This document shows, in pieces, positions 17,599-59,121 of a stretch of 64,000 bases of DNA (its first letter is position 1; every line of letters starts with the position of its first letter). The DNA is from Brachionus manjavacas (taxonomy: Eukaryota; Rotifera; Eurotatoria; Ploima; Brachionidae). The notes beneath the pieces are model-generated. The model was not told the origin of the DNA and did no database searches. It saw nothing but the letters and a program-made list of their open reading frames with translations. Position numbers and translations under genes: made by a program. The stretch is taken from contig JAHQIY010000010.1 in assembly GCA_019054805.1 (NCBI GenBank), forward strand, positions 2,711,501 through 2,775,500, read 5' to 3'.

Positions 17599-17904
17599 AA
17601 TCTTGAACATGAACATTTATTTATAAAATTTTCAAATTTTATTTTTTAATTATTCTATTATTACGCTTTCAATTTTAATTAAAAATTATCCATCAATTGT
17701 ACTATATTTATACTCCAGCTTTTTCTATCTGTAGTATTAACTCTTATTTGAACTAAAAATTAAACTTTATTTTTTCTGTCAGTATTTTTATATGTGTTAT
17801 GCGCAAGGAGCTACCATAGGGGACCTACTAGTAGGCCACCTTCGCAATCTAGTCTTGCTGTAGCTTTTATATATTATTATTATTATTATTATTAAAAAAT
17901 GAAA
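17599..17904 (+). repeat. Structured LINE-like 3' end followed by TTA microsatellite
   Basis: Contains GCGCAAGG ... CCTTCGC, able to pair across a 12-bp perfect palindrome CCTACTAGTAGG (17824-17835), then TTTATA and a (TTA)n run at about 17870-17894. This looks like the 3' end of a second retroelement family, distinct from the GGAGC tail family. The same block opens every unit (25218, 32705, 40202, 47706). Confidence 0.5.
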
Positions 17905-18423
17905 ATCCAAGAGCAGAAAGAGTTTCATTAAATTTTAAATCTCTAAAAGTATTAAAGATGTATTTGGCTGAGTCAGTTTCAATGGACAAAGAGAAAGATT
18001 GAATAGAAGCAAAGCAAATATTAAACATTTTCTCTTGATCAACAGTACTTGAAGCTTTCTTAAAATTACCAACAAATTTTGTTCTTCTGGAAAGGTGACA
18101 AAATCAGCATCTCCTCTTAGTTTTGTGGATGTTTTCTAAGAATTTCAAAATTTCTTAGAATTTTTAAAATCATTAGCAAAAAATAGTTTTATTTTTTTGA
18201 CGGTTCAGTTTTTTAAACTCCCCTCTAGCTTCCCTATATTCAAAAAGATTCTGTTCTGTTTTGTCCATCATTTAATTTTGATAATTTTAATCCTTAAAAT
18301 TTCATAATGATCTGAGTTCACAATCAAACCAAGGAGATTGTTCAATTTTCTTATTCTTTGATTTCTTTAATGGACAACATGATTCTTTATTATCCTTAAT
18401 TAGACTCCACTTACTCTCTACAA
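17905..18423 (-). pseudogene. LINE endonuclease/RT linker relic, unit 1
   Basis: Minus-strand reading gives KWSLIKDNKESCCPLKKSK, then IEQSPWFDCELRSL, EYREARGEFKKLNRQKNK and further downstream pieces: the linker between endonuclease and reverse transcriptase in non-LTR elements. Frameshifted and interrupted at 18424 by a SINE. The same LINE appears to resume at 18725-18892, and again beyond the Tigger-like element at about 20515-20640. Confidence 0.55.
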
Positions 18424-18724
18424 GGGCCCGTATAGCCGAATGGTTAGCGTGTTAGTCATGCAAGCAGAGGATCGAGGGTCAAAACCCGCTGAGGGTGAAA
18501 AAATCTTCTAAAATATCGAATGTTTAAACCTCTTTCATCTTAAAAAAGGGAGACTAGTTTCGACTGGGTAATAATTGCTGTGTAGATGATCAACTTGATG
18601 AAGTATCCTCTGTGTCAGATCGGAGCCGTTGCTCAAAAAGGTACTTGAAAAGGAGATGAGCGCCTCTCGACAATTATTACTCTATACAGGATAGAATAGG
18701 GACAATTATTACTCTATACAGAAT
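18424..18724 (+). mobile_element. tRNA-headed SINE, unit 1
   Basis: The first 74 nt (18424-18497) resemble a tRNA: a box A-like TAGCCGAATGG, a 7-nt anticodon-type loop GTCATGC with CAT in the anticodon position and T before it, and a box B-like GGGTCAAAACC. The acceptor and T stems do not pair properly, so it is not a working tRNA gene. A 230-bp body follows and ends in a tandem duplication of ACAATTATTACTCTATACAG. TTACTCTCTACA before the head and TTACTCTATACA at the end may be the target-site duplication. It lies inside the LINE linker relic. Confidence 0.6.
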
Positions 18725-19377
18725 CAAGTTTTCTCATTAGAGTATAATAGAATTCCTTTAAAAGATTTCCAACCTTTTCAATATTTTTTTCAGCGATTAA
18801 CCTGAATTGATAAGTGAAAATATTAGATTTCTCGACCTAAATAGGAAGCTCAGTAAAAATTTATCATCACTGAAAAGACAACCAACCAACAATACAGTCA
18901 ATCCTGGGTATAATGAACAACTTGGGCGGAAAATTCGGTATTCGTTATATCGAAAAATGATAGGTACAAAAAAATTTTATTGATAAAAAATCTAAAATAA
19001 AAATGTGAGAAAAAACAAAAAGTTATTTTTTTTTTGAAAAAAATCGGTAATAGATGGTTGTTTGGTAAAGCTACTTTCAATTATAAAATCTTCAATATTA
19101 AATAATAAATTAATTACATTAATTTTCTGTACCGGCTAAGTTCTTTTCGTAATGTTCTCTGTTGCTTTTGACTACAAAATAGTAGAAATTGTAGAAGCAT
19201 TAACGTTGTATTTTTGGCCAGCTTTGAAGTGGTTATTTTTCGCTCAGTATGCTTTTTTTAATTTCTATCTTGACTTCAAGAGATAAACATTTTCTCTTTT
19301 TTTTCAAACTTGCTTTTCATTCATTTTTATCAATTAGAATTTTTAGATAAACAATAATTATTTATTTATTTTGTTTT

Positions 19378-20283
19378 CTGTACCGAGCAAAAGCTCCTTG
19401 AGATTAAAAAAAGAAAATCAAAATAAAATAAAGTAAAATAAGATAGAATAAAAATTTAAAAAATTAAATGTAATAAAATGGCTTAAAATAGAGGAAAATT
19501 AATGAAATTGAACTAAGAGAGTAAAAGGATACATATTTTTAAAAATTGATTGTTCAGGGAAAAAAGAAGAAATTGTAAGGTAGCAATTACAAAATGGAGT
19601 TGGGTATTCAATATATCTTGATTCGAAACCTTCTTTGTATTCCTTCACCAGTCTTACAACCAATGGAATAGAATGACTCAGTCCTGTCCCAACATATATC
19701 TCACTCAACTCAAAAAGCCGATTTGAGACTGTTAGTAACTTAAGTTTATTAAAAGCTTCATGATGCACGATGTTGGAGGGAGTATCATATTTTAACTTGA
19801 GGATAATCTGACAGCTGTATTCTGAATTGCTTGTAGTTTTAACACACTAGGAAATTTATATAAATCTTTAGTCGGATCTATTTTAGACTATTCTTTTCCT
19901 TGCTTGAATTCATTTTCAGAAAATAATATCAAAAAACTACAAGCAATTCAGAATACAGCTGTCATTCGATATTATTTTCTGAAAATGAATTCAAGCAAGG
20001 AAAAGAATAGTCTAAAATAGATCCGACTAAAGATTTATATAAATTTCCTAGTGTGTTTTGAGTAAGACCCCATTTTTGGTTTGACAATATCTTAATAATA
20101 TTTAACCTTTTATTGCAGCGTTCTTTGATTTCGTCTACTAATATATTAAAATTTAATTTAGAATCAAATTTTTTACCAAGAAACTTGATTTCTTTTTGGC
20201 TCACTATTCTGTTTCCATAAATTTTTTAGTTTAGATTATCACTCTCTTTTCTACTAAGAAAAGACTACTGAACACGACTTTTC
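19378..20283 (-). pseudogene. LINE RT C-terminal piece in the Tigger-like element, unit 1 (inverted-duplication variant)
   Basis: 5'-truncated LINE ending in the tail at 19378-19402. The reading frame (QKEIKFLGKKFDSKLNF, LVGSILDYSFPCLNS) is disrupted by a 123-bp inverted copy of itself (19841-19963). Variant type A (AAAATGGAGTTGGGTATTC), as in unit 5. Confidence 0.75.
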
Positions 20284-20427
20284 TAATTAGTAATTGTCAA
20301 GTATTTATCTACTATTTTTTATTATCAAGGTTCATTTTTTTAGCTTATTTACTCTATTTTGATTCTTTTTTTTTATCTAATTTTATTAACTTTTATTTTA
20401 TTTTTATTTTATTTTTAACTTATTATA

Positions 20428-20476
20428 AAGGAGCTTTAGCTTGGTACAGAAAACAAATAAATAAAATAAAATAAAA
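20428..20476 (+). repeat. Second LINE 3' tail, opposite orientation, unit 1
   Basis: AAGGAGCTTTAGCTTGGTAC with AGAAAACAAATAAATAAA and an AATAAA run. Its 3' UTR-like stretch begins near 20330. Only the 3' end is present. It abuts the right terminal repeat of the Tigger-like element and is repeated at 27929, 35419, 42916 and 50417. Confidence 0.7.
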
Positions 20477-20996
20477 AAATAATGGGGGTTCGTTATACAG
20501 AGGATCGACTGTAGTTGAAAATGATTTAAAATCTTCTTGATGTAGAATATGGCCAATATAACTTAGCTTAGCTTTGATATCATTTGATTTGTTTGAGAAA
20601 CTTATTCGCGAAGACTTATTAGTTTAGCTTTTAAGTTTTAAATCTTTTGAGAATTAAACAAAACTTTTTTCTCATGATTTATGATCCATGTTAGCTACCA
20701 CTCCGTACTGAGTAGTAGTACTACTCCTACTAATAACAAAATATAATAAATGTTAAGAATTTGTATAAAAATTTTTATTCAAATTTTGATTAGAATTAAT
20801 CAAGCCAAAAAAGAAAAAAGAAAATAGAAAAAAAAAGATCAAAAATTCTTATCTTTTTTATTAACTACAAAAATTATTCAGTGAAGAGAAAAAAGGAGAA
20901 AAAATTAAAATCGCAATAAATCACTTGACCATAAAATACACATAAACTTAGAAAAAAGGCGCTTGAATAAAAGCCAACATAATAATAATAAAATGC

Positions 20997-22797
20997 TTAA
21001 TTTAACAAATCCACTGTTGACCCGATCAGGGTAGATATAGAACCGGCTGTTATTTGAGATCGACTTGCACTCTTCTGCACACTGGCACTCTGCTGCGGAT
21101 CATAGTCACAAAAGTACTTGCCCGACTCCACTCTTTCCTTGAGCAGCGACAGCTTGTAGTTGGCACTGGTAATTTTAAACTTAACTGTGGACAAAGTGTC
21201 ATTGTCAATGTGAAATTTGGTGTACACGGGCTGATAGAGCTGGTCCAGCGAGCTCAATTTTTCGCCACTGACCTCACTAACCTTGAACTTGGCGCTCACC
21301 TTTCCGTCCATGCTAACACACCCGATCTGAAATAGGACCTGAGTGCGTTCTTCCTTCTCCTGTCTGTTTACTAGCGCCTTTGGCTCCGATGACTCTAAAC
21401 TCACCCTGAACTCCTTGGTGTCCACCACAATCACCATCGGCATCAGCACCATAAAACTGCACTGGCCCAAACTCTTGCCATGCGTGAGCCTGTAGTCCAA
21501 GACAAGCTCAACAGTCTGCTGGTCGTGGTTGCACGACCAATTGGCCTCGAGCACCATCGGCGCCTCTTCTTTCAAATACCTAAATTCATACTTGAGCAAT
21601 TCGAAGTTGAAAAAGGCCGCCATTTTGTTCACTTGATGCTGGGCCTTTAGCTCACTGACCAAATTTTGTGTCTTGAACCTGAAGTTGAACTCGTCCATGC
21701 CCGTGAACAAAGACTCGTTTTTTTCTAGCAGTTGTGTGTTCAGCTTCAAGTCCTGGTTGAGTATGCTCAAATTTTTGAGGTTAAACTCCAACAAAGGCAG
21801 CTCCAGAGACAACAGCTTCAAAATGGCATACGGAAAGGATATTTTCATGCAGCCAAAGCACTTGATTTTAGATCTTGACGGCTCGCCGATTTTAAAATAG
21901 GCATGGATGGTCTCGTTGAAAGCAATGGCAATGGGAATGATCTCGCAGCCGGCATTCACGGTCAATGGGCTGATTATGGACGCTCTGGTGCTCTGCTGCT
22001 CGAACAGAGAAGTGGTGTGACGAAAGTCGGGAGTGGTCCGGCCTGGAAAGCACGCCGGAGTGAATCTGCCCGCCGGCGAAGAGCTCACCGTGGGTTTTTT
22101 GATGGCCAGATTGTACTGAAACGAGCTCTCCACTTCTTTGTCCTCGTCAATGTTGTACAATGAGTTTTCGTTGGCAATTTTGGCTTTGGGCGAAAAGTCC
22201 ATGTCGAACAGAGAAGACTCGCTCTTGTTCAAATCGGCCTGCAAGTTGCTGCCCATGGACACCGACCGGGTCATGCTTGACTCGGCGCTGAAGTTGTACT
22301 GGTAGGTTTTTGAGTGTTGCTTGGGCGCTTTGGACGCCGGTTTCTGCAGCTGGAGATTCTTGCTTATTTCGCGCAGCACGTCCATGTTCTGCACGTTGGT
22401 CTGCTCGTTTTTGGGGTTGATTTTGAGCATCACTTTGACCGGCTGCTCGTCCGAGTCCGACTCGGACTCGGAGCTTGACGGCGAGGAGACATAGTTGTTC
22501 ATGTCGTCGTTGGTGCGACGCCGCAAGTCTATGGATGAGTCGGGCCGCAGTGAGTAGCCCTCGCTGTCAACATCGCTGATTTTCAAATGGTCAAACAGGT
22601 CCAGAGACAGGGAGTTGAGTGACTTTTCTTCGCCGCTCTTGGTCTCGTCCACCTGGCTCGTCGCTGCTGACGATGATGCTGCTGCTGATGCTGATGCCGA
22701 TGCAGGTTTGCTCTGCGCTTGCTTTTTTTGGTTTTTGCTGTGAGATTTGTGTTTCGGTTTCGACCGGTCAGAAAGTCAACGTTGAAAATGTTCAAGC
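20997..22797 (-). CDS. FCHO-type terminal exon (linker plus mu-homology domain), copy 1
   Basis: Encodes the C-terminal ~600 residues of an F-BAR/muniscin endocytic adaptor. Order: a basic start (NIFNVDFLTGRNRN), an Ala/Ser run, an acidic Ser-rich linker with DVDSEGYSLRPD (like the conserved DEEGYxxRP element of this family), then a mu-homology domain from about CEIIPIAIAFNETIHAYFK to YKLSLLKERVESGKYFCD. In vertebrate FCHO proteins this domain binds cargo adaptors and Eps15 at early clathrin pits. The acceptor is placed at AAG/GC (22797), which gives the phase needed by the F-BAR donor, though its pyrimidine tract is poor. A minus-strand AATAAA lies at 20862-20857. This copy has a one-base loss plus T-to-G near 22748, so the first ~20 residues are out of frame with the 551-residue remainder. 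Confidence 0.85.
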
Positions 22798-23296
22798 CTT
22801 GGGTGGACAAAATTTTTTATTTGTTTGTGGTAAGGGGACAGTTTTTGGAAGATTTAAATTTAAATTATGGATAGATTTTTTTATTTTTTTGATTTTTTGT
22901 TATTTTTTTAGTTTACTTTTTTTTATTTGTCGCTCCGAGGTTAAAATTCCTAAAAAAAATGGCTGGTCATTTTTTAAAAATTAAGAAAATTTTTTGGGAA
23001 AAATTTTTGGGGTCAAATGGGTGAAAAAAAAGTCAAATAATTAAATTTAAAACTCAACAACTCAAAAAAAAAACTAAATAATATCACCCCTTTTTCGTGG
23101 CCTTTTGCTACTGGGGGTTAGGATCAGAATTTTTTTATTTTTAACGCCAAATAAAATTTTAGACCTTTCAAAATATAAAAACTTTATATCAATCAAATTT
23201 AAGGACTCAAAGGGACTAAATCCCGATTTTGTCCGTAAAATATTAATTAACAAAAAAGCTTCATTTTTGTAACTAGACATTTATTCATTTGTTTTT
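22798..23296 (-). other. Intron sequence upstream of the terminal exon, unit 1
   Basis: AT-rich. It includes a 68-codon minus-strand frame (23280-23074, beginning SSYKNEAFLLINILRTKS) kept in all five units. I do not recognise it, and conservation only reflects the recent duplication. Confidence 0.4.
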
Positions 23297-23395
23297 CTGT
23301 ACCGAGCTAGGGCTCCTTCAGAATAAATCAAAAAAATCAAAATCAAAAAGAAAATCAAAATAAAATAAATAAGCCAAAAAAAATGAAAGTTAAGA
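23297..23395 (-). repeat. Third LINE 3' tail of the unit, minus orientation
   Basis: CTGTACCGAGCTAGGGCTCC plus TTCAG, then AAATCAAAATAAAATAAATAAGCC. The minus-strand hairpin is GAGC-CCTA-GCTC. Repeated at 30795, 38284, 45788 and 53281. 23400-24000 beyond it is AT-rich with no recognisable content. Confidence 0.7.
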
Positions 23396-24004
23396 AGACA
23401 TCAATTAAAAATTTATTAAATAGTCAATTAATTGTATTTATTCGTTAATTAAAAGTATTGTTTGTCATTTAAAACAATTAGTTATCACAAAATTTAATTA
23501 AATGTCATTTAATTTATGAAATAAAGTCAAGTTTAAAAATATCATTAATTAAATTTATTTTATAAGTTTTAAAAAAATAAGGAATCGTGCTTGGACAATA
23601 AAACCAGTCTAATATACCATAAACCAGAAATACCTTGTTATTTAAGCTTAAAAAAAATTTCCAATTTTTGCTCACCAAAATAATTAATAAAAATTGTTAT
23701 TCAAAAAATCAACAAAAATTATCTCAATCGAAATTAAGATAGTGATTAAAAAAATGCTATTTAATTAATTGTGGTAAGATACCTTTCATTCAAATTTGAT
23801 TTAAAAAGTGGGCCCGGTTTTGAATATAGAATAGCCTAGACTAAGCATAAACGGGGATATAAACAAAAGAAAAATCGTAAATATAAAATACAATAACCAC
23901 TCTATTAGCGATTCAGCCGAAATTGCAGAATTTTTTGCATTTAACCTAGAAATTTTTTTGATGGTCAAACATCGGTGAGGTAAAGTTCGCTAATATTTCT
24001 TATA

Positions 24005-24614
24005 CAGTGGTGCTCCGGATTTAGTAATTTACGTAAATTTATGTAAAAAAATGTCCAAAAAATTTAAATAATTAAAAATTAAAAAAAAATGAATTTTTTT
24101 TATCCTTAAATATTTATTTTCAAAATTATTTAAAAAAAAAAATTAATCATAATTTACGTAAATTTTGGTAAAATATAATCAATTTAATAGAAAAAATAGT
24201 AAATTTGGTAATTAAAATTTTTAATTAATTTTTTTATGGTAAAAAAAATATCTGAAATAGTTTTAATGCTTTTTAAGTGTTTGACCAACCTCCTTTATTT
24301 TCTATTAATTTAATTACTATCTAGATTTTAATTTAAATTAATAATAATTTTATTTTATATTTTCAATTTTAACCCTTTTTAAATGTTTAATGTAATTTTG
24401 ACATTTTACCATTTTTTAACCATTAAATTGATTACTTTTCATCAAAATTTACGTAAATTATGGAATTTTTTTACACAATTTTGAAAATAAATATTGAATG
24501 ATAAAAAAATTCATTTTTTTTTTTAAAAAGTGCCAAATTATTTCAATTTTTTGGAAATTTTTTTACATAATTTTACGTAAAATTTTCGATATTCACCAAA
24601 TTTTATGTAAAATC
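24005..24614. mobile_element. Long fold-back (MITE-like) element, unit 1
   Basis: Left arm from CAGTGGTGCTCCGG through ACGTAAATTTATGTAAAAAA, CCAAAAAATT, AATGAATTTTTT, AAATATTTATTTTCAAAATT, ATAATTTACGTAAATTTTG and AATCAATTTAAT. The same blocks recur in reverse complement order between about 24410 and 24614, centred near 24310. The right CAGTGGTG terminus is missing, so the right end is truncated. Non-coding. Confidence 0.65.
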
Positions 24615-24769
24615 TATATGCATTTAGCAAGAAATGAAATCGTGAAAAAGCTCAAAACAACCGTCAAGAGTAGCAGGAGGTTTTGATCTAATATCCAACA
24701 AGGTATGTAAAATCTCCCTTTCCAAAAACTAGTTAACATACACAAACAATTTAACAGCTCACTCAATTA

Positions 24770-25142
24770 TGGCCCTTCAATCTGGAAAAAATCCAAAATT
24801 ATAATGATTCTTAAAAAAAGATAAACCTCCAGATAATCTGGACTCTTACAGACCGATCTCCCTTATCAGTTGCTTTGCCAAATGGCTCGAAAAATTGTAA
24901 AACAAAAGATTCAAAATTCGGCAGAAAAATCAAAAATTCTACCAAATTTTCTATCTTCAGAAAATCTAAAATCACTCAAGACCACACATTGAGATTAATA
25001 ACAGATGGATTCACCCACAATCATCTCACTGGGACTATTTTCTTCGATCTTCGAAAAAGCCTTAGACAAAACATCTCACTATGGTATAATAGCAGAATTT
25101 ATGCAACGCAATCTCCATTAATTATTTCGGGTCTAGTCCATT
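24770..25142 (+). pseudogene. LINE reverse transcriptase relic, + strand, unit 1
   Basis: Frameshifted reading gives DKPPDNLDSYRPISLISCFA, KWLEKIVKQKIQ, then ITDGFTHNHLTGTIFFDL and EKALDKTSHYGI: the fingers and first palm motif. The QGSxLGP and FADD motifs are absent. It runs opposite to the other LINE pieces in the unit. Confidence 0.6.
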
Positions 25143-25190
25143 AGGTGAACAATTCATGTTCACGGTATAAGTAAACAAATTGTTCACCTA
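25142..25190. repeat. 49-bp hairpin with TAGGTGAACAATT arms, unit 1
   Basis: TAGGTGAACAATT and its exact reverse complement AATTGTTCACCTA flank a 23-bp loop, with TA at both outer edges. Could be a minimal mariner-type solo end pair. Also at 32629, 40126, 47630 and 55122, with further single TAGGTGAACA copies at about 55187 and 55231. Confidence 0.6.
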
Positions 25191-25512
25191 ATTATTTTTA
25201 AACTTATAAGTGTTTTTAATCTTGAACATGAACATTTATTTATAAAATTTTCAAATTTTTTTTAATTATTCTATTATTACGCTTTCAATTTTAATTAAAA
25301 ATTATCCATCAATTGTACTATATTTATACTCCAGCTTTTTCTATCTGTAGTATTAACTCTTATTTGAACTAAAAATTAAACTTTATTTTTTCTATCAGTA
25401 TTTTTATATGTGTTATGCGCAAGGAGCTACCATAGGGGACCTACTAGTAGGCCACCTTCGCAATCTAGTCTTGCTGTAGCTTTTATATATTATTATTATT
25501 ATTATTATTAAA

Positions 25513-26050
25513 AAATGAAAATCCAAGAGCAGAAAGAGTTTCATTAAATTTTAAATCTCTAAAAGTATTAAAGATGTATTTGGCTGAGTCAGTTTCAATG
25601 GACAAAGAGAAAGATTGAATAGAAGCAAAGCAAATATTAAACATTTTCTCTTGATCAACAGTACTTGAAGCTTTCTTAAAATTACCAACAAATTTTGTTC
25701 TTCTGGAAAGGTGACAAAATCAGCATCTCCTCTTAGTTTTGTGGATGTTTTCTAAGAATTTCAAAATTTCTTAGAATTTTTAAAATCATTAGCCTTTTAG
25801 CCTCAAAAAATAGTTTTATTTTTTTGACGGTTCAGTTTTTAAACTCCCCTCTAGCTTCCCTATATTCAAAAAGATTCTGTTCTGTTTTGTCCATCATTTA
25901 ATTTTGATAATTTTAATCCTTAAAATTTCATAATGATCTGAGTTCACAATCAAACCAAGGAGATTGTTCAATTTTTCTTATTCTTTGATTTCTTTAATGG
26001 ACAACATGATTCTTTATTATCCTTAATTAGACTCCACTTACTCTCTACAA
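25513..26050 (-). pseudogene. LINE endonuclease/RT linker relic, unit 2
   Basis: Contains the 11-bp CTTTTAGCCTC block (about 25794) missing from unit 1. Otherwise equivalent, ending at the SINE. Confidence 0.55.
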
Positions 26051-26352
26051 GGGCCCGTATAGCCGAATGGTTAGCGTGTTAGTCATGCAAGCAGAGGATC
26101 GAGGGTCAAAACCCGCTGAGGGTGAAAAAATCTTCTAAAATATCGAATGTTTAAACCTCTTTCATCTTAAAAAAAGGGAGACTAGTTTCGACTGGGTAAT
26201 AATTGCTGTGTAGATGATCAACTTGATGAAGTATCCTCTGTGTCAGATCGGAGCCGTTGCTCAAAAAGGTACTTGAAAAGGAGATGAGCGCCTCTCGACA
26301 ATTATTACTCTATACAGGATAGAATAGGGACAATTATTACTCTATACAGAAT
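26051..26352 (+). mobile_element. tRNA-headed SINE, unit 2
   Basis: Head at 26051-26124 is identical by eye to unit 1. The body has one extra A in the A-run near 26170. Confidence 0.6.
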
Positions 26353-26522
26353 CAAGTTTTCTCATTAGAGTATAATAGAATTCCTTTAAAAGATTTCCAA
26401 CCTTTTCAATATTTTTTTCAGCGATTAACCTGAATTGATAAGTGAAAATATTAGATTTCTCGACCTAAATAGGAAGCTCAGTAAAAATTTATCATCACTG
26501 AAAAGACAACCAACCAACAATA

Positions 26523-28012
26523 CAGTCAATCCTGGGTATAATGAACAACTTGGGCGGAAAATTCGGTATTCGTTATATCGAAAAATGATAGGTACAAAAA
26601 AATTTTATTGATAAAAAATCTAAAATAAAAATAAAAACGAAAAGTTATTTTTTTTTTCCAAATAATCGGTAATAGATGGTTGTTTGGTAAAGCTACTTTC
26701 AATTATAAAATCTTCAATATTAAATAATAAATTAATTACATTAATTTTTCTGTACCGGCTAAGTTCTTTTCGTAATGTTCTCTGTTGCTTTTGACTACAA
26801 AATAGTAGAAATTGTAGAAGCATTAACGTTGTATTTTTGGCCAGCTTTGAAGTGGTTATTTTTCGCTCAGTATGCTTTTTTTTTAATTTCTATCTTGACT
26901 TCAAGAGATAAACATTTTCTCTTTTTTTTCAAACTTGCTTTTCATTCATTTTTATCAATTAGAATTTTTAGATAAACAATAATTATTTATTTATTTTGTT
27001 TTCTGTACCGAGCAAAAGCTCCTTGAGATTAAAAAAAAGAAAATCAAAATAAAATAAAGTAAAATAAGATAGAATAAAAATTTAAAAAATTAAATGTAAT
27101 AAAATGGCTTAAAATAGAGGAAAATTAATGAAATTGAACTAAGAGAGTAAAAGGATACATATTTTTAAAAATTGATTGTTCAGGGAAAAAAGAAGAAATT
27201 GTAAGGTAGCAATTACACAATGGAGTACGGTTTTCAATACATCTTGATTCGAAACCTTCTTTGTATTCCTCCACCAGTCTTACAACTAGTGGAATAGAAT
27301 GACTCAGTCCTGTCCCAACATATATCTCACTCAACTCAAAAAGCCGATTCGAGACTGTTAGTAATTTAAGTTTATTAAAAGCTTCATGATTCACGATGTT
27401 GGAGGGAGTATCATATTTTAACTTGAGGATAGATCTTACTGCTGTATTCTGAATTGCTTGTAGTTTTTTGATATTATTTTCTGAAAATGAATTCAAGCAA
27501 GGAAAAGAATAGTCTAAAATAGATCCGACTAAAGATTTATATAAATTTCTTGGTGTGTTTTGAGTAAGACCCCATTTTTTGCTTGACAATATCTTAATAA
27601 TATTTAACCTTTTATTGCAGCGTTCTTTGATTTCGTCTACTAATATATTAAAATTTAATTTAGAATCAAATTTTTTACCAAGAAACTTGATTTCTTTTTG
27701 GCTCACTATTCTGTTTCCATAAATTTTTTAGTTTAGATTATCACTCTCTTTTTTATCTAGAAAAGACTAATGAACACGACTTTTCTAATTAGTAATTGTC
27801 AAGTATTTATCTACTATTTTTTATTATCAAGGTTCATTTTTTTAGCTTATTTACTCTATTTTGATTATTTTTTTTATCTAATTTTATTAACTTTTATTTT
27901 ATTTTTATTTTATTTTTAACTTATTATAAAGGAGCTTTAGCTTGGTACAGAAAACAAATAAATAAAATAAAATAAAAAAATAATGGGGGTTCGTTATACA
28001 GAGGATCGACTG
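26523..28012 (-). mobile_element. Pogo/Tigger-like transposon with nested LINEs, unit 2
   Basis: TA-flanked ends as in unit 1. Without the inverted duplication the element is 1.49 kb. The C-terminal coding tail reads FTKQPSITDYL here. Confidence 0.7.
27003..27785 (-). pseudogene. LINE RT C-terminal piece, unit 2
   Basis: A 193-codon frame is open from 27706 to 27125: QKEIKFLGKKFDSKLNF, NKRLNIIKIL, LVGSILDYSFPCLNS, IQNTAVRSILKLKYDTPS, PLVVRLVEEYKEGFESR. This is the thumb and tail of the reverse transcriptase. The catalytic part is missing by 5' truncation. Variant type B (ACACAATGGAGTACGG), shared with units 3 and 4. Confidence 0.8.
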
Positions 28013-28497
28013 TAGTTGAAAATGATTTAAAATCTTCTTGATGTAGAATATGGCCAATATAACTTAGCTTAGCTTTGATATCATTTGATTTGTTTGAGAA
28101 ACTTATTCGCGAAGACTTATTAGTTTAGCTTTTAAGTTTTAAATCTTTTGAGAATTAAACAAAACTTTTTTCTCATGATTTATGATCCATGTTAGCTACC
28201 ACTCCGTACTGAGTAGTAGTACTACTCCTACTAATAACAAAATATAATAAATGTTAAGAATTTGTATAAAAATTTTTATTCAAATTTTGATTAGAATTAA
28301 TCAAGCCAAAAAAGAAAAAAGAAAATAGAAAAAAAAAGATCAAAAATTCTTATCTTTTTTATTAACTACAAAAATTATTCAGTGAAGAGAAAAAAGGAGA
28401 AAAAATTAAAATCGCAATAAATCACTTGACCATAAAATACACATAAACTTAGAAAAAAGGCGCTTGAATAAAAGCCAACATAATAATAATAAAATGC

Positions 28498-47632: not shown

Positions 47633-48002
47633 GTGAACAATTCATGTTCACGGTATAAGTAAACAAATTGTTCACCTAATTATTTTTAAACTTATAAGTG
47701 TTTTTAATCTTGAACATGAACATTTATTTATAAAATTTTCAAATTTTTTTTTTAATTATTCTATTATTACGCTTTCAATTTTAATTAAAAATTATCCATC
47801 AATTGTACTATATTTATACTCCAGCTTTTTCTATCTGTAGTATTAACTCTTATTTGAACTAAAAATTAAACTTTATTTTTTCTATCAGTATTTTTATATG
47901 TGTTATGCGCAAGGAGCTACCATAGGGGACCTACTAGTAGGCCACCTTCGCAATCTAGTCTTGCTGTAGCTTTTATATATTATTATTATTATTATTATTA
48001 AA

Positions 48003-48541
48003 AAATGAAAATCCAAGAGCAGAAAGAGTTTCATTAAATTTTAAATCTCTAAAAGTATTAAAGATGTATTTGGCTGAGTCAGTTTCAATGGACAAAGAGA
48101 AAGATTGAATAGAAGCAAAGCAAATATTAAACATTTTCTCTTGATCAACAGTACTTGAAGCTTTCTTAAAATTACCAACAAATTTTGTTCTTCTGGAAAG
48201 GTGACAAAATCAGCATCTCCTCTTAGTTTTGTGGATGTTTTCTAAGAATTTCAAAATTTCTTAGAATTTTTAAAATCATTAGCCTTTTAGCCTCAAAAAA
48301 TAGTTTTATTTTTTTGACGGTTCAGTTTTTTAAACTCCCCTCTAGCTTCCCTATATTCAAAAAGATTCTGTTCTGTTTTGTCCATCATTTAATTTTGATA
48401 ATTTTAATCCTTAAAATTTCATAATGATCTGAGTTCACAATCAAACCAAGGAGATTGTTCAATTTTTCTTATTCTTTGATTTCTTTAATGGACAACATGA
48501 TTCTTTATTATCCTTAATTAGACTCCACTTACTCTCTACAA
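48003..48541 (-). pseudogene. LINE endonuclease/RT linker relic, unit 5
   Basis: Has the 11-bp block, and a longer T-run near 48463, as in unit 2. Confidence 0.55.
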
Positions 48542-48843
48542 GGGCCCGTATAGCCGAATGGTTAGCGTGTTAGTCATGCAAGCAGAGGATCGAGGGTCAA
48601 AACCCGCTGAGGGTGAAAAAATCTTCTAAAATATCGAATGTTTAAACCTCTTTCATCTTAAAAAAGGGAGACTAGTTTCGACTGGGTAATAATTGCTGTG
48701 TAGATGATCAACTTGATGAAGTATCCTCTGTGTCAGATCGGAGCCGTTGCTCAAAAAGGTACTTGAAAAGGAGATGAGCGCCTCTCGACAATTATTACTC
48801 TATACAGGATAGAATAGGGACAATTATTACTCTATACAGAATC
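48542..48843 (+). mobile_element. tRNA-headed SINE, unit 5
   Basis: Head at 48542-48615. Sequence as in unit 1. Confidence 0.6.
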
Positions 48844-49011
48844 AAGTTTTCTCATTAGAGTATAATAGAATTCCTTTAAAAGATTTCCAACCTTTTCAAT
48901 ATTTTTTCAGCGATTAACCTGAATTGATAAGTGAAAATATTAGATTTCTCGACCTAAATAGGAAGCTCAGTAAAAATTTATCATCACTGAAAAGACAACC
49001 AACCAACAATA

Positions 49012-50500
49012 CAGTCAATCCTGGGTATAATGAACAACTTGGGCGGAAAATTCGGTATTCGTTATATCGAAAAATGATAGGTACAAAAAAAATTTTATTG
49101 ATAAAAAATCTAAAATAAAAATGTGAGAAAAAACAAAAAGTTATTTTTTTTTGAAAAAATCGGTAATAGATGGTTGTTTGGTAAAGCTACTTTCAATTAT
49201 AAAATCTTCAATATTAAATAATAAATTAATTACATTAATTTTCTGTACCGGCTAAGTTCTTTTCGTAATGTTCTCTGTTGCTTTTGACTACAAAATAGTA
49301 GAAATTGTAGAAGCATTAACGTTGTATTTTTGGCCAGCTTTGAAGTGGTTATTTTTCGCTCAGTATGCTTTTTTTAATTTCTATCTTGACTTCAAGAGAT
49401 AAACATTTTCTCTTTTTTTTCAAACTTGCTTTTCATTCATTTTTATCAATTAGAATTTTTAGATAAACAATAATTATTTATTTATTTTGTTTTCTGTACC
49501 GAGCAAAAGCTCCTTGAGATTAAAAAAAAGAAAATCAAAATAAAATAAAGTAAAATAAGATAGAATAAAAATTTAAAAAATTAAATGTAATAAAATGGCT
49601 TAAAATAGAGGAAAATTAATGAAATTGAACTAAGAGAGTTAAAGGATACACATTTTTAAAAATTGATTGTTCAGGGAAAAAAGAAGAAATTGTAAGGTAG
49701 CAATTACAAAATGGAGTTGGGTATTCAATATATCTTGATTCGAAACCTTCTTTGTATTCCTTCACCAGTCTTACAACCAATGGAATAGAATGACTCAGTC
49801 CTGTCCCAACATATATCTCACTCAACTCAAAAAGCCGATTTGAGACTGTTAGTAACTTAAGTTTATTAAAAGCTTCATGATGCACGATGTTGGAGGGAGT
49901 ATCATATTTTAACTTGAGGATAATCTGACAGCTGTATTCTGAATTGCTTGTAGTTTTTTGATATTATTTTCTGAAAATGAATTCAAGCAAGGAAAAGAAT
50001 AGTCTAAAATAGATCCGACTAAAGATTTATATAAATTTCCTAGTGTGTTTTGAGTAAGACCCCATTTTTGGTTTGACAATATCTTAATAATATTTAACCT
50101 TTTATTGCAGCGTTCTTTGATTTCGTCTACTAATATATTAAAATTTAATTTAGAATCAAATTTTTTACCAAGAAACTTGATTTCTTTTTGGCTCACTATT
50201 CTGTTTCCATAAATTTTTTAGTTTAGATTATCACTCTCTTTTCTACTAAGAAAAGACTACTGAACACGACTTTTCTAATTAGTAATTGTCAAGTATTTAT
50301 CTACTATTTTTTATTATCAAGGTTCATTTTTTAGCTTATTTACTCTATTTTGATTCTTTTTTTATCTAATTTTATTAACTTTTATTTTATTTTTATTTTA
50401 TTTTTAACTTATTATAAAGGAGCTTTAGCTTGGTACAGAAAACAAATAAATAAAATAAAATAAAAAAATAATGGGGGTTCGTTATACAGAGGATCGACTG
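49012..50500 (-). mobile_element. Pogo/Tigger-like transposon with nested LINEs, unit 5
   Basis: Has unit 1-type LINE variants but no inverted duplication, so it shows the arrangement that unit 1 must have had before that event. Confidence 0.7.
49494..50275 (-). pseudogene. LINE RT C-terminal piece, unit 5
   Basis: Type A variant. The frame is broken at about 49920-49925, where GATAATCTGACAGC replaces the in-frame GATAGATCTTACTGC of units 2-4. Confidence 0.8.
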
Positions 50501-50983
50501 TAGTTGAAAATGATTTAAAATCTTCTTGATGTAGAATATGGCCAATATAACTTAGCTTAGCTTTGATATCATTTGATTTGTTTGAGAAACTTATTCGCGA
50601 AGACTTATTAGTTTAGCTTTTAAGTTTTAAATCTTTTGAGAATTAAACAAAACTTTTTTCTCATGATTTATGATCCATGTTAGCTACCACTCCGTACTGA
50701 GTAGTAGTACTACTCCTACTAATAACAAAATATAATAAATGTTAAGAATTTGTATAAAAATTTTTATTCAAATTTTGATTAGAATTAATCAAGCCAAAAA
50801 AGAAAAAAGAAAATAGAAAAAAAGATCAAAAATTCTTATCTTTTTTATTAACTACAAAAATTATTCAGTGAAGAGAAAAAAGGAGAAAAAATTAAAATCG
50901 CAATAAATCACTTGACCATAAAATACACATAAACTTAGAAAAAAGGCGCTTGAATAAAAGCCAACATAATAATAATAAAATGC

Positions 50984-52783
50984 TTAATTTAACAAATCCA
51001 CTGTTGACCCGATCAGGGTAGATATAGAACCGGCTGTTATTTGAGATCGACTTGCACTCTTCTGCACACTGGCACTCTGCTGCGGATCATAGTCACAAAA
51101 GTACTTGCCCGACTCCACTCTTTCCTTGAGCAGCGACAGCTTGTAGTTGGCACTGGTAATTTTAAACTTAACTGTGGACAAAGTGTCATTGTCAATGTGA
51201 AATTTGGTGTACACGGGCTGATAGAGCTGGTCCAGCGAGCTCAATTTTTCGCCACTGACCTCACTAACCTTGAACTTGGCGCTCACCTTTCCGTCCATGC
51301 TAACACACCCGATCTGAAATAGGACCTGAGTGCGTTCTTCCTTCTCCTGTCTGTTTACTAGCGCCTTTGGCTCCGATGACTCTAAACTCACCCTGAACTC
51401 CTTGGTGTCCACCACAATCACCATCGGCATCAGCACCATAAAACTGCACTGGCCCAAACTCTTGCCATGCGTGAGCCTGTAGTCCAAGACAAGCTCAACA
51501 GTCTGCTGGTCGTGGTTGCACGACCAATTGGCCTCGAGCACCATCGGCGCCTCTTCTTTCAAATACCTAAATTCATACTTGAGCAATTCGAAGTTGAAAA
51601 AGGCCGCCATTTTGTTCACTTGATGCTGGGCCTTTAGCTCACTGACCAAATTTTGTGTCTTGAACCTGAAGTTGAACTCGTCCATGCCCGTGAACAAAGA
51701 CTCGTTTTTTCTAGCAGTTGTGTGTTCAGCTTCAAGTCCTGGTTGAGTATGCTCAAATTTTTGAGGTTAAACTCCAACAAAGGCAGCTCCAGAGACAACA
51801 GCTTCAAAATGGCATACGGAAAGGATATTTTCATGCAGCCAAAGCACTTGATTTTAGATCTTGACGGCTCGCCGATTTTAAAATAGGCATGGATGGTCTC
51901 GTTGAAAGCAATGGCAATGGGAATGATCTCGCAGCCGGCATTCACGGTCAATGGGCTGATTATGGACGCTCTGGTGCTCTGCTGCTCGAACAGAGAAGTG
52001 GTGTGACGAAAGTCGGGAGTGGTCCGGCCTGGAAAGCACGCCGGAGTGAATCTGCCCGCCGGCGAAGAGCTCACCGTGGGTTTTTTGATGGCCAGATTGT
52101 ACTGAAACGAGCTCTCCACTTCTTTGTCCTCGTCAATGTTGTACAATGAGTTTTCGTTGGCAATTTTGGCTTTGGGCGAAAAGTCCATGTCGAACAGAGA
52201 AGACTCGCTCTTGTTCAAATCGGCCTGCAAGTTGCTGCCCATGGACACCGACCGGGTCATGCTTGACTCGGCGCTGAAGTTGTACTGGTAGGTTTTTGAG
52301 TGTTGCTTGGGCGCTTTGGACGCCGGTTTCTGCAGCTGGAGATTCTTGCTTATTTCGCGCAGCACGTCCATGTTCTGCACGTTGGTCTGCTCGTTTTTGG
52401 GGTTGATTTTGAGCATCACTTTGACCGGCTGCTCGTCCGAGTCCGACTCGGACTCGGAGCTTGACGGCGAGGAGACATAGTTGTTCATGTCGTCGTTGGT
52501 GCGACGCCGCAAGTCTATGGATGAGTCGGGCCGCAGTGAGTAGCCCTCGCTGTCAACATCGCTGATTTTCAAATGGTCAAACAGGTCCAGAGACAGGGAG
52601 TTGAGTGACTTTTCTTCGCCGCTCTTGGTCTCGTCCACCTGGCTCGTCGCTGCTGACGATGATGCTGCTGCTGATGCTGATGCCGATGCAGGTTTGCTCT
52701 GCGCTTGCTTTTTTGGTTTGTGCTGTGAGATTTTTTGTTTCGGTTTCGACCGGTCAGAAAGTCAACGTTGAAAATGTTCAAGC
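50984..52783 (-). CDS. FCHO-type terminal exon, copy 5 (nearest the F-BAR exon)
   Basis: First acceptor that a transcript from the F-BAR exon would meet. It carries two breaks: one T lost at 52709-52714 (same run as copy 3, with a T-to-G just beside it) and one T lost from a run of seven at 51705-51710. The second break splits the mu-homology domain between a 334-residue upstream frame (52638-51634) and a 237-residue downstream frame (51697-50984). As written this is the most damaged copy, although it lies next to the head exon. Confidence 0.85.
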
Positions 52784-53987
52784 CTTGGGTGGACAAAATT
52801 TTTTATTTGTTTGTGGTAAGGGGACAGTTTTTGGAAGATTTAAATTTAAATTATGGATAGATTTTTTATTTTTTTTGATTTTTTGTTATTTTTTTAGTTT
52901 ACTTTTTTTATTTGTCGCTCCGAGGTTAAAATTCCTAAAAAAAATGGCTGGTCATTTTTTAAAAAATTAAGAAAATTTTTTGGGAAAAATTTTTGGGGTC
53001 AAATGGGTGAAAAAAAAGTCAAATAATTAAATTTAAAACTCAACAACTCAAAAAAAACTAAATAATATCACCCCTTTTTCGTGGCCTTTTGCTACTGGGG
53101 GTTAGGATCAGAATTTTTTTATTTTTAACGCCAAATAAAATTTTAGACCTTTCAAAATATAAAAACTTTATATCAATCAAATTTAAGGACTCAAAGGGAC
53201 TAAATCCCGATTTTGTCCGTAAAATATTAATTAACAAAAAAGCTTCATTTTTGTAACTAGACATTTATTCATTTGTTTTTCTGTACCGAGCTAGGGCTCC
53301 TTCAGAATAAATCAAAAAAATCAAAATCAAAAAGAAAATCAAAATAAAATAAATAAGCCAAAAAAAAATGAAAGTTAAGAAGACATCAATTAAAAATTTA
53401 TTAAATAGTCAATTAATTGTATTTATTCGTTAATTAAAAGTATTGTTTGTCATTTAAAACAATTAGTTATCACAAAATTTAATTAAATGTCATTTAATTT
53501 ATGAAATAAAGTCAAGTTTAAAAATATCATTAATTAAATTTATTTTATAAGTTTTAAAAAAATAAGGAATCGTGCTTGGACAATAAAACCAGTCTAATAT
53601 ACCATAAACCAGAAATACCTTGTTATTTAAGCTTAAAAAATTTCCATTTTTTGCTCACCAAAATAATTAATAAAAATTGTTATTCTAAAAATCAAGAAAA
53701 ATTATCTCAATCGAAATTAAGATAGTGATTAAAAAAATGCTATTTAATTAATTGTGGTAAGATACCTTTCATTCAAATTTGATTTAAAAAGTGGGCCCGG
53801 TTTTGAATATAGAATAGCCTAGACTAAGCATAAACGGGGATATAAACAAAAGAAAAATCGTAAATATAAAATACAATAACCACTCTATTAGCGATTCAGC
53901 CGAAATTGCAGAATTTTTTGCATTTAACCTAGAAATTTTTTTGATGGTCAAACATCGGTGAGGTAAAGTTCGCTAATATTTCTTATA

Positions 53988-54599
53988 CAGTGGTGCTCCG
54001 GATTTAGTAATTTACGTAAATTTATGTAAAAAAATGTCCAAAAAATTGAAATAATTAAAAATTAAAAAAATGAATTTTTTTTATCCTTAAATATTTATTT
54101 TCAAAATTATTTAAAAAAAAAATTAATCATAATTTACGTAAATTTTGGTAAAATATAATCAATTTAATAGAAAAAATAGTAAATTTGGTAATTAAAATTT
54201 TTAATTAATTTTTTTATGGTAAAAAAAATATCTGAAATAGTTTTAATGCTTTTTAAGTGTTTGACCAACCTCCTTGATTTTCTATTAGTTTAATTACCAT
54301 CTAGATTTTAATTTAAATTAATTATAATTTTATTTTATATTTTCAATTTTAACCCTTTTTAAATGTTTAATGTAATTTTGACATTTTACCATTTTTTAAC
54401 CATTAAATTGATTACTTTTCACCAAAATTTACGTAAATTATGGAATTTTTTTACACAATTTTGAAAATAAATATTGAATGATAAAAAAAATTCATTTTTT
54501 TTTTAAAAAAGTGCCAAATTATTTCAATTTTTTGGAAATTTTTTTTTACATAATTTTACGTAAAATTTTCGATATTCACCAAATTTTATGTAAAATCTA
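53988..54599. mobile_element. Fold-back element, unit 5
   Basis: Carries most of the private substitutions of this unit in its central and right parts. Confidence 0.6.
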
Positions 54600-54751
54600 T
54601 ATGCATTTAGCAAGAAATGAAATCGTGAAAAAGCTCAAAACAACCGTCAAGAGTAGCAGGAGGTTTTGATCTAATATCCAACAAGGTATGTAAAATCTCC
54701 CTTTCCAAAAACTAGTTAACATACACAAACAATTTAACAGCTCACTCAATT

Positions 54752-55124
54752 ATGGCCCTTCAATCTGGAAAAAATCCAAAATTATAATGATTCTTAAAAG
54801 ATAAACCTCCAGATAATCTGGACTCTTACAGACCGATCTCCCTTATCAGTTGCTTTGCCAAATGGCTCGAAAAATTGTAAAACAAAAGATTCAAAATTCG
54901 GCAGAAAAATCAAAAATTCTACCAAATTTTCTATCTTCAGAAAATCTAAAATCACTCAAGACCACACATTGAGATTAATAACAGATGGATTCACCCACAA
55001 TCATCTCACTGGGACTATTTTCTTCGATCTTCGAAAAAGCCTTAGACAAAACATCTCACTATGGTATAATAGCAGAATTTATGCAACGCAATCTCCATTA
55101 ATTATTTCGGGTCTAGTCCATTAG
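54752..55124 (+). pseudogene. LINE reverse transcriptase relic, + strand, unit 5
   Basis: Shortest A-run of the five near 54797. Motifs unchanged. Confidence 0.6.
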
Positions 55125-55189
55125 GTGAACAATTCATGTTCACGGTATAAGTAAACAAATTGTTCACCTAATTATTTTTAAACTTATAG

Positions 55190-55458
55190 GTGAACATGAA
55201 AATTAATGAAAATTTAAAAAATTTTAGTAAAAAAATTTAGGTGAACATTTGAAAAAAAAGTGTATTTTAGAAAAAAATTTATTTGAGTTTACGAATAAAG
55301 AATTTTAAGTCTTGTGTCTTGTTAATTTAAAAATTTTTACTTGAGACTCCGAGTTTTATGGCTTTTTATACCACCCTCACCTTCAAATAAGCGTAATTCA
55401 TATTCTTCAGATTCAAAAACGCAATCTGTTTACAAAAATATGAAGAATTGAAGAATGA
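55190..55458. other. Right flank of the array
   Basis: AT-rich DNA with single copies of TAGGTGAACA at about 55187 and 55231. The 10-mer TGAACATGAA at 55191-55200 also occurs at the left edge of the array (17604-17613). Confidence 0.45.
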
Positions 55459-55764
55459 AGCAAGAAGATTGCAAGATGGCTTAGAAATAATTTAAATGAT
55501 GGTTATTTAGAAGTCAAAGATTTAACAATCACTAATATTGTAAGTAGCCTTAAGCGTACTCGAGTTGGCGATGATCCTGGAAATTCGATAGAAGCTCTAA
55601 TCAGTAGGGCTCAATTCAATCATCAAATTCCGGTAGAAGATGATACAATGTTTGTCGTTACGAATTTCAACTTAGAGCCTGATAATGAATCGTTTCATAT
55701 TTTTATGACTACAAAGCGATTGACATTCTTTGTTAGATTTTGCGAACATATCTCACGATTTTAG
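55459..55764 (+). pseudogene. MULE-like transposase central fragment
   Basis: An open frame of 101 codons without a start: KKIARWLRNNLNDGYLEVKD, LTITNIVSSLKRTRVGDDPG, then ISRAQFNHQIPVEDDTMFVV and TNFNLEPDNESFHIFMTTKR. From memory this resembles the region before the DDE core of FLYWCH-type MULE proteins found in rotifers. It ends at TAG 55762-55764 before the catalytic domain, so it is a relic. It could derive from the same family as 10510-10886. Confidence 0.55.
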
Positions 55765-55967
55765 TTACACAATCGACTATTGACACTAATTTATATCAAA
55801 AAAGAAGACGAGGTCATCAAAGATAGACAAGACGGTGTGAAATCATAAATCAAAATAAATACACTAAATTAGTTAATTTAGTTAATTGTTTAGTTGAAAA
55901 AAATAAATTATTTTTTTTAAATTTGTTTTTTATTTTATCTTATTTTTGCTCCTAATTTGACATGAAG

Positions 55968-57535
55968 GTTTACATTTTAAACTGATTAAAATGAATCCAC
56001 CTTACTACTTGACTAACTGGATTAGATCCTTTATAGACACTAGGACATTTAAGGTAAATGTGAATGATCACCTATGATCTAATGATCTCATATTCTCCTA
56101 GTTCGATTTGAGTCGGTTTGATTCGGTCTGGTTCAAAAAAAAAGAAAAAAACACATAATTATCAAAATTAAAAAATTAACATTTCAAAATAATGATAAAT
56201 TATTATACAAACACCAAAGCGTAATTTCTTGTCTTCGTCTATTCAATTTAATTTGTTTTCTATTTAATTCATTACATATCAAAAAAAATAAAAGCTGTAA
56301 CAATTCATGTCTTCTTAACTTTAATTTATTTAGCTTATTTTACTTTATTTTTATTTATTTTTTTATTTTCTTAACTCATTTTATTAACTTTAATTTTATT
56401 TTTATTTTATTTATTTATTTTTTTTAATTTATTCTGAAGGAGCTCTAGCTCAGTACAGAAAACAAATAAATAAATCACCTGATCGAAGAATATCAAATAA
56501 CTGCAGGTGTTCCTCAAGGCTCAGTGATTAATCCTCTTTTATTTAGTATATATATTAATGACATCCCAAAAAGAAACAAAACAAATAACGAGTACTCTCT
56601 GCTTTTCGCAGATGATCTAGTTACATTCTTCATTTATAACAAAAAAGGGAACCTAGAAAATAAGATTAATAAATACACCAACGAACTAGAACAATGGCTT
56701 ATTAAATGGAAAATGAAGATATCAGTTGAAAAGTCGTGTTCAGTAGTCTTTTCTAGATAAAAAAAGAGAGTGATGATCTAAACTTAAAAATTTATGGAAA
56801 CAGAATAGTGAGCCAAAAAGAAATCAAGTTTTTTGGTATTAAATTTGATTCTAAATTAAATTTTAATATATTAGTAGACGAAATTAAGTAACGCTGGAAC
56901 AAAAGGCTAAATATTATTAAGATATTGTCAAGCAAAAAATGGGGTCTTACTCAAAACACACCAGGAAATTTTTATAAATCTTTAGTCGGATCGATTTTAG
57001 ACTATTCTTTTCCTTGCTTGAATTCATTTTCAGAAAATAATATCAAAAAACTACAAGCAATTCAGAATACAGCAGTAAGATCTATCCTCAAGTTAAAATA
57101 TGATACTCCCTCCAACATCGTACATCATGAGGCTTTTAATAAACTAAAATTACTAACAGTCTCGAATCGGCTTTTTGAATTGAGTGAGAGATATGTTGGG
57201 GCAGGACTGAGTCATTCTATTCCATTGGTTGTAAGACTGGTGGAAGAAAAGAAACAAGGTTTCGAATCAAGATATATTGAATACCCAACTCCATTTTGTA
57301 ATTGCTACCTTACTATTTCCTCCTTTTTTCCTGAAACCTGAACTATGTAAACATTTGCCACATGTAACAATCTATGTCTTCTAAACTTTCATTTTTTTTA
57401 GCTAATTTATTTTATTTTGATTTTCTTTTTTTTATCTGATTTTATTAACTTTAATTTTATTTTTTATTTTCATTCTGATTTTTTTCTAATCTATTCTGAA
57501 GGAGCCCTGGCTCGGCACAGAAAACAAATAAACTT
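55968..57535 (+). pseudogene. LINE, 5'-truncated, interrupted by a smaller LINE insertion
   Basis: Reads HEGLHFKLIKMNPPYYLTNW and FIDTRTFKVNVND up to 56073. It resumes at 56474 with HLIEEYQITAGVPQGSVINP, INDIPKRNK and LLFADDLVTFF (catalytic FADD intact). A frameshift at about 56757 and an in-frame stop near 56888 follow. The C-terminal frame 56925-57341 matches the LINE pieces in the array. The 3' UTR ends in a tail at 57496-57520 (GGAGCCCTGGCTCGG). Confidence 0.8.
56074..56473 (+). mobile_element. 400-bp 5'-truncated LINE insertion with target-site duplication
   Basis: Inserted in the reverse transcriptase of the surrounding LINE. ATCACCT stands at 56067-56073 and again at 56474-56480, and removing the insert plus one copy restores a continuous reading frame. 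It ends with the 3' UTR and tail (56434-56458, hairpin GAGC-TCTA-GCTC) and ACAAATAA. Confidence 0.75.
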
Positions 57536-57665
57536 GACAATTACTAATTATTGTATATCTAAAAATTCTAATTGATAAAAATGAATGAAAAGCTGGTTAA
57601 GGGGGAAAAAAATAAGAGAAAAAATATTAAAGACGAAAAGTACGTTTTAGAAATTATTTTAGATC
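57536..57665 (+). pseudogene. Pogo/Tigger-like 5' fragment, inverted relative to the array copies
   Basis: CTAAAAATTCTAATTGATAA and AAATGAATGAAAAGC match, in reverse complement, the sequence just before the HTH part of the Tigger-like elements (for example near 19330). The reading degenerates after about 57650. A LINE of the same family lies directly upstream in both places. The rest of 57666-57843 is AT-rich without recognisable content. Confidence 0.5.
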
Positions 57666-57906
57666 TAAGGTTAGAATAGTCTTTTCAAAAAGAACATTCT
57701 TTTAGACTTGAGAGAGACAAAAAGGAGAGAAATAATGACTTTTCAAATAAAATAAAAAAAAGACGTCCATTCTATACTAAAGCTAGAAATAAATTCTAAA
57801 AATAACATCCTTCCTACGAGGGTGCATAAAGAAGGGTCCTTTGTCAATAGCTCGAAAAAGTTTGTGGGGAGCCATTAATCCCAATAAAAGTCAATAGAAA
57901 AAAGTT

Positions 57907-57908
57907 AC
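57907..57908 (-). other. Splice donor of the F-BAR exon
   Basis: GT of AAG/GTAACT on the minus strand. Beyond it the open frame adds only 22 hydrophobic, AT-rich codons before a stop, unlike the preceding sequence. The next acceptor in a matching phase on this strand is about 5.1 kb away, in array unit 5. Confidence 0.75.
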
Positions 57909-59121
57909 CTTTTGAATCATTTTTTTTCGATTCATTGCTCTGTACAGGTGATTGATTTTTGTCGCCATTTAGCTGAGAATAAGAGGTTTGGAAATAATTT
58001 TTACATTCATTTTCGTTAAGAGCAAAGTCATTGTCCATAGTGGACGTAGTCACATTGGGGGTGTTTACAGGCGACTCGACAAACTGAGCAACTTCGGGTC
58101 GCTCAATTCCCGTCCGCTTATTATCAATGAACAAACTTATCAAATACTCGCTGCTAAGGCTTTCCATTTTGGCCGTCAAATCGGCCATTATCTGACACTT
58201 TTGCGAGTTGCCACTGGCCACTATTTTCGAGTAAGTTTCCACATAGCTTCTCATTTGCTTCAGATGCACCTCTTCGGCATACTGAAACTGGTTGCACGAG
58301 TCGACCAGCTTGCGCTCGTAGTCCAGTCTGACCGCGTTGTACTTCTCAATGGACGACTTGTAGTCGTCGCACGCTTGCTTCATTTTTTTCTCCACTTTGA
58401 CCAATTGGCTAACCCGGCTAGTGGTCAGTGTTGTGTTGAGGCTGGTCGAGTTGGCGCCAGGCACCAAGCTCATCAAATTGCTGGCCGAGGTTTGCTGCTG
58501 GGACATTGTTTGGTACTGGACAAGCTGCTGTGGGTCGAGTTGCCGCTTGAGCTTGTCGAACTCGCTGCACAGATTGTGGTACTGGTCCTTGGCCTTGTTG
58601 AGCGAAGCGCTGCACTCTTGGAAGCTCTGCACCACCAGCTGGGTCTGTTGTTCGTTTTCGCGGATCCGCTTTATCTTCTTGGACAAGTCGTCTGCGTACT
58701 TTTGCACATCGCGGATCAACTCGTGCAGCGACTGCACCATGTTGGCATGAGTGGCCGAGTACTTTTCGTTGAGGTCGCGCAGCAGCGACCATGTTGGGTG
58801 AAAGGAGCCGTTGGTGGACGATTTGTTTATCACTGAGACTAGTTTGTTGAGCGAACGAGCGTGCTGGTCCTCGACGCCCGAGGCTTCGCGCAAAAACTGC
58901 TCCAAGTCTTTGGCGCTGCCCAGAGAGTGCTTTAGGTTTTGGCAGAGGGCGTCAAAGCCGGTCGCTTTGTCGCCCCAGAAGTTGTCGCAGAAATTTTTTG
59001 TACCCGACTGGATGGAGGGACAGAGCAGCGATTGCTGGTTGGCGTTGGTGGACGACGAGGACGAGGACGTGTTTATTGATGTGTTTGCGGGGGGCGACAG
59101 CGGTCGATTGTGATTCACCAT
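57909..59121 (-). CDS. FCHO-type F-BAR exon (5' coding exon)
   Basis: Start ATG at 59121-59119 in a good context (AACATGG); the upstream GTG frame extension is not needed. It encodes 404 residues plus one base. Residues ~1-41 are Ser/Thr/Pro-rich. An F-BAR domain follows from NFCDNFWGDKATGFDALCQN (residue 43) to about 330, with coiled-coil helices LEQFLREASGVEDQHARSL and ELIRDVQKYADDLSKKI, ending near NKRTGIERPEV. F-BAR dimers bend membrane, and in FCHO proteins they act at nascent clathrin-coated pits. A Gln/Ser/Thr-rich segment of about 45 residues (196-242) interrupts the domain. The exon ends AAAAG/GTAACT, phase 1, which fits the mu-homology exons. Joined to one of them the protein would be about 1000 residues, a plausible FCHO size. 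Confidence 0.88.

Follow-up and report, generated by a model that had tools for sequence, protein, structure and literature searches.

Introduction

FCHO1 and FCHO2 are muniscin endocytic adaptors that carry an N-terminal F-BAR domain, a linker and a C-terminal mu-homology domain (muHD). In tandem exon duplication or partial gene duplication, which includes the formation of clustered alternative last exons, an exon and its flanks are copied head to tail and the splice signals are kept. The locus of the rotifer Brachionus manjavacas described here would encode the same order of domains as FCHO1 and FCHO2, and head and tail appear joined in one product in the related protein P0005, a partial record. 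It differs from FCHO1 and FCHO2 in that five tandem copies of the terminal exon follow a single head. The closest parallel known is the duplication of exons or of parts of genes in tandem, here affecting an FCHO gene; in this case a unit of 7.5 kb with retroelement fragments is repeated, and only the terminal exon is multiplied, in five near-identical copies. No such FCHO arrangement is reported in the literature covered, which concerned FCHO isoforms and duplication, muniscin evolution, tandem last exons and rotifer F-BAR proteins, with most subscription journals outside that scope. In the same genus, the available text on B. asplanchnoidis describes copy-number-variable regions that consist mainly of satellite DNA, reach megabases and hold few genes (PMC8447722). 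The present locus resembles them, as far as that text goes, in genus and in the copy-number change of long tandem DNA, but here one gene segment is involved, in five units.

Five direct units and the origin of the array

The stretch of DNA analysed (the window, 64,000 nucleotides, G000:C10:2711501-2775500) belongs to an assembly of 114.17 Mb in 61 contigs. Self-BLAST and alignment of the window showed that positions 17599-55192 are made of five adjoining direct units, with the gene on the minus strand.

17599..25217, no strand assigned, unit c1, 7619 bp, farthest from the head (self-BLAST, alignment)
25218..32704, no strand assigned, unit c2, 7487 bp (self-BLAST, alignment)
32705..40201, no strand assigned, unit c3, 7497 bp (self-BLAST, alignment)
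40202..47705, no strand assigned, unit c4, 7504 bp (self-BLAST, alignment)
47706..55192, no strand assigned, unit c5, 7487 bp, nearest the head, its right edge meeting the outer flank (self-BLAST, alignment, junction reading)

Outside gaps, identity was 99.45-99.92% across all ten pairs of units, which is far beyond chance. A preliminary description of this DNA had reported five direct repeats of about 7.5 kb, each with the same minus-strand mu-homology exon, and self-BLAST, alignment and Pfam bore this out. The five-unit alignment contains 49 substitution columns, and 24 of these fall in a single retroelement block (columns 4864-5639; in c2, 27218-27867). Twenty-three columns, all within that block, split c1 and c5 from c2, c3 and c4. 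Outside the block the unit pairs differ by 0.09-0.29%, so the array is young. Some changes are private to one copy: c1 has a 125-base insert (19841-19965) and an 11-base deletion, and c2 has a 6-base deletion. The genome matches of the 125-base insert are opposite in orientation to those of the neighbouring element, as if it were a small inverted insertion.

The retroelement label of the block comes from the intron between head and tails, where positions 56728-57593 are about 87% identical, in inverted orientation, to a stretch in units c2-c5 and continue an open reading frame that matches RVT_1; the open reading frames inside the units gave no match over the cut-off. A search of the own genome with the DNA of a whole unit returned 224 matches, with 39 of 5796 candidates scored, and the matches listed were mostly to the retroelement stretch rather than to the array. 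That search is uninformative on extra units, and the protein and Pfam searches given below were used for that question.

The junctions bear on how the array arose. All four internal junctions read ...CTTATAAGTGTTTTT joined to AATCTTGAAC..., the right edge of c5 reads ...CTTATAGGTG joined to AACATGAAAATT... and the left edge of c1 reads ...CTAGTCAAC joined to AATCTTGAAC.... An insert of five T residues is common to the four internal junctions and is missing from both outer edges; one duplication thus probably founded the array. Its two breakpoints would lie in the head-tail intron and downstream of the gene, joined across the five-base insert, and recombination between the copies would then have expanded the segment to about five units. 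A single end-joining event followed by recombination between units would be the simplest account. A similar TGAACATGAA word is present at both outer edges, which makes a short-homology route possible. The two retroelement variants, one in c1 and c5 and the other in c2-c4, need an extra step, which could be conversion by another copy of the element or amplification of a middle unit.

It could be argued that the copy number is an artefact of assembly, in which one or two true units were multiplied from collapsed, repeated or mixed haplotype reads. Units c2, c3 and c4 are indeed only 6-13 substitutions apart per pair, and every copy contains one-base slips (described below) of the sort met in poorly polished repeats. 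However, a novel junction seen four times needs at least one true duplication, the clustered substitutions and larger indels set c1, c5 and c2-c4 apart and so indicate at least three kinds of unit, and the window sits inside a contig of 3.66 Mb. An artefact of this kind is considered unlikely.

The head exon and its predicted junction with the tail exons

To the right of the array lies the 5' part of the gene.

57909..59121, minus strand, F-BAR head exon of the FCHO gene, with an ATG at 59121 and a donor after 57909 (phase 1), supported by Pfam, a structure match and the P0005 junction
52784..57908, minus strand, intron of 5125 bp between the head and c5, the nearest tail, predicted from splice signals in the sequence and holding an inverted retroelement fragment
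56470..57593, plus strand, retroelement fragment in the head-tail intron, with RVT_1 in 56470-56757 (8e-14)

The head exon matched the Pfam FCH domain (1.9e-11) and the solved F-BAR structure of FCHO2 (9.2e-44). It ends in AAAAG followed by the donor GTAAC, with one codon base left over, and the tail exon in each unit begins with GC after CCCAAG, which completes the split codon of the head. The predicted intron would be 5.1 kb long for the nearest tail, whereas splicing to c1, the farthest, would span 35.1 kb. The junction can be read directly in a B. calyciflorus protein, P0005, in which ...NKDSKGLNIFNVDFLTGRN... equals the junction predicted here. Besides its F-BAR, P0005 covers the junction and a large part of the tail, with 66% identity across 79% of the tail query; it is a partial record in which Pfam called the F-BAR only. 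The junction is also spanned at the protein level by P0043 and P0059. Because P0005, and likewise P0043 and P0059, runs through the exact predicted junction, the head and tail exons would be, by homology, parts of one gene.

It had been proposed that one FCHO head faces five terminal exons, which could serve tail choice, dosage or later divergence. The arrangement itself is present in the assembly, and the P0005 junction links it by homology to one gene; the functional reading found no support, as set out in the next section.

Coding content and frame of the tail exons

20997..22797, minus strand, tail exon c1, 1801 bp, linker and muHD, one one-base loss near the 5' end
28498..30298, minus strand, tail exon c2, 1801 bp, one one-base loss in a T run
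35985..37785, minus strand, tail exon c3, 1801 bp, one one-base loss near the 5' end
43485..45285, minus strand, tail exon c4, 1801 bp, one one-base loss in a C run
50984..52783, minus strand, tail exon c5, 1800 bp, linker and muHD, two one-base losses as assembled

The longest open stretch of copy 1, of 592 codons, was used as query for the tail. It matched the Pfam muHD (PF10291, E 1e-21) and the solved muHDs of SGIP1 (1.1e-20) and FCHO1 (7.1e-17). In a test for the AP2-activating linker, residues 64-172 of the tail stretch gave a weak match to FCHO2 chain 7og1 (E 0.00096). The tail exons end with GSTVDLLN and a stop, followed by two AATAAA signals 135 and 215-218 bases after the stop in all five copies.

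As assembled, translation from the acceptor gave no open frame to the stop in any of the five tails. The reading frame first meets a stop at codon 70 in c1, c3 and c5, at codon 273 in c4 and at codon 407 in c2. The 592-codon open stretches of c1 and c3 lie downstream of the slip and seem undamaged, but the acceptor sets a different frame. Against 1802 alignment columns each copy is short of one or two bases in homopolymer runs. The breaks amount to five one-base gap columns with six copy events, all of them losses, in runs of 3-7 identical bases. Of the 47 indel runs in the whole unit, 40 alter the length of a homopolymer; 16 of these are confined to a single copy, with 14 losses and 2 gains (binomial P 0.004). 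The exon slips are all one-base losses in runs, indel columns outnumber substitution columns in the exon, and over the unit losses exceed gains; consensus error, from under-called runs in a near-identical repeat that is hard to polish, is therefore the most likely origin of the missing bases in all five copies. Outside exons, true slippage in runs of A or T, in a genome rich in AT, could also produce this indel excess. The locus would also show how near-identical arrays can gather assembly frame breaks that resemble pseudogenes.

It is also conceivable that the array is decaying and that most or all copies are true pseudogenes through one-base losses, in keeping with the want of an open tail as assembled. 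But the genome search gave no muHD elsewhere, so with every copy broken the species would be losing a domain that its relatives keep. The exon has five indel columns against three substitution columns, and no stop in the tail exons is caused by a substitution. Decay is considered very unlikely.

The three substitution columns in 1802 comprise a synonymous change in c2, a change beside the slip of c1 and a Lys-to-Thr change in c5 near its slip; the latter two adjoin A-rich slip sites. Tail-exon substitutions were not significantly rarer than those elsewhere (Fisher P 0.12), and constraint on the copies is unsupported. The tails encode nearly one protein, so tail choice, as put forward in the preliminary description, would alter almost nothing now. 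Dosage and later divergence are possible.

Five tails in use, as alternative last exons or as tail-only transcripts, would let the quantity or the proportions of FCHO products be tuned. The acceptor, stop and AATAAA are indeed kept in all five copies; however, nearly the same protein would come from every tail, and youth alone accounts for the near-identity, and such use is very unlikely. Hardly to be expected, too, is a working multi-tail locus with five equivalent last exons, in which near or distal use or tail-only transcripts would set the balance of full FCHO against muHD-only product, beside an FCHO-like gene without a muHD that is kept in relatives.

Our data point rather to a recent amplification, in tandem, of the 3' portion of the single full-length FCHO gene found in the assembly, with the nearest tail as the default and the other four redundant, and this reading is likely to be correct. 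In such an amplification c5 would still have the intron, acceptor and poly(A) signals of the initial gene and, to judge from this anatomy, would be the probable default last exon. Transcription from the head would meet c5 first, be spliced there and end at its poly(A) site, with c4 to c1 lying beyond. Copies c1-c4 are complete in their parts (acceptor, stop and AATAAA) and would most likely be redundant, being rarely joined to the head.

If the five units are confirmed, the locus would be a clean natural case of a terminal exon amplified alone in tandem with the head left single. One could then study how splicing and polyadenylation choose among several last exons that are nearly identical, and how an array of partial genes persists or disappears.

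A second head and other copies in the genome

All seven Pfam muHD matches in the own genome lie within the array, and no muHD was found outside it across the 114 Mb assembly. The tail-protein search of the own genome gave nine matches; eight of them fall inside the array, and the ninth is to the linker of a second head. The F-BAR query gave three, namely the head exon of the window and two pieces of the second head.

G000:C10:2785075-2786580 (L034:176-1681), minus strand, second FCHO-like head with F-BAR and linker, outside the window

The suggestion that a single F-BAR exon lies upstream of the tails is correct within the window (57909-59121), but this second F-BAR head is located 14 kb further upstream, outside it. 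This head consists of a single open frame, 502 codons long and closed by a stop of its own, and its F-BAR matched FCHO2 (7e-26). A hidden muHD was sought with a profile of 19 tails, drawn from 43 related proteins, and with tblastn using the same 19. On the window and C10:2775400-2794000, the profile found beyond the array only the linker of the second head (E 0.00035) and a window open reading frame at chance level (E 4.2). In tblastn on 2775400-2794000 the linker of the second head was the sole match, with no muHD nearby. Among solved structures, up to E 5, no relevant AP2-activator match was obtained for this linker. The second head was considered as a further user of the array and, judged by its own stop and the lack of a hidden muHD in these searches, was rejected. 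The locus would thus have two heads, of which only the nearer one appears built to join the tails.

The second head has relatives of its own: P0060, with 57% identity along the full length, and P0061, with 35% identity along the F-BAR. The three proteins have the similar last residues EEMQF, EEVQF and EIMQF. From these sequences it looks like a separate FCHO-like gene without a muHD that is kept in relatives, possibly a muHD-less muniscin paralogue of rotifers. This neighbouring gene may be the more lasting biological point.

Relatives of the head and the tail

The tail-protein search gave 43 matches and the head search 17; two weak tail matches are fish proteins. The closest named relatives are from B. 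plicatilis, with P0004 being 87% identical over 89% of the tail query and P0045 93% identical over 55% of the head query, and from B. calyciflorus (P0005). The longest contig is 17,403 bases for each of tail P0001, head P0044 and second head P0060, which suggests that the three are on one contig, in a relative that would have both heads and the tail within 17.4 kb. A single contig of 17,403 bases would be too short for a 37.6 kb array in that relative. Longest-contig values are also shared by the head and tail pairs P0057/P0006 (5,406) and P0059/P0008 (11,495).

Other features of the neighbourhood

About 19 kb beyond the head exon there is a direct repeat of 2.05 kb (L034:4446-6491 and L034:7053-9096), 99.5% identical and 2.6 kb apart. 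Together with the copy-number-variable regions of the genus described in the available text (PMC8447722), this nearby repeat indicates that the genome is no stranger to young duplications. To the left of the array, a direct repeat of 0.68 kb (8345-9026 and 14197-14877) is 99% identical and 5.9 kb apart. An open frame at 12804-13775 (plus strand) has DnaJ and DnaJ-X domains, and one at 459-1106 (minus strand) matches Exo_endo_phos_2 (endonuclease-reverse transcriptase, 5e-14), another retroelement fragment.
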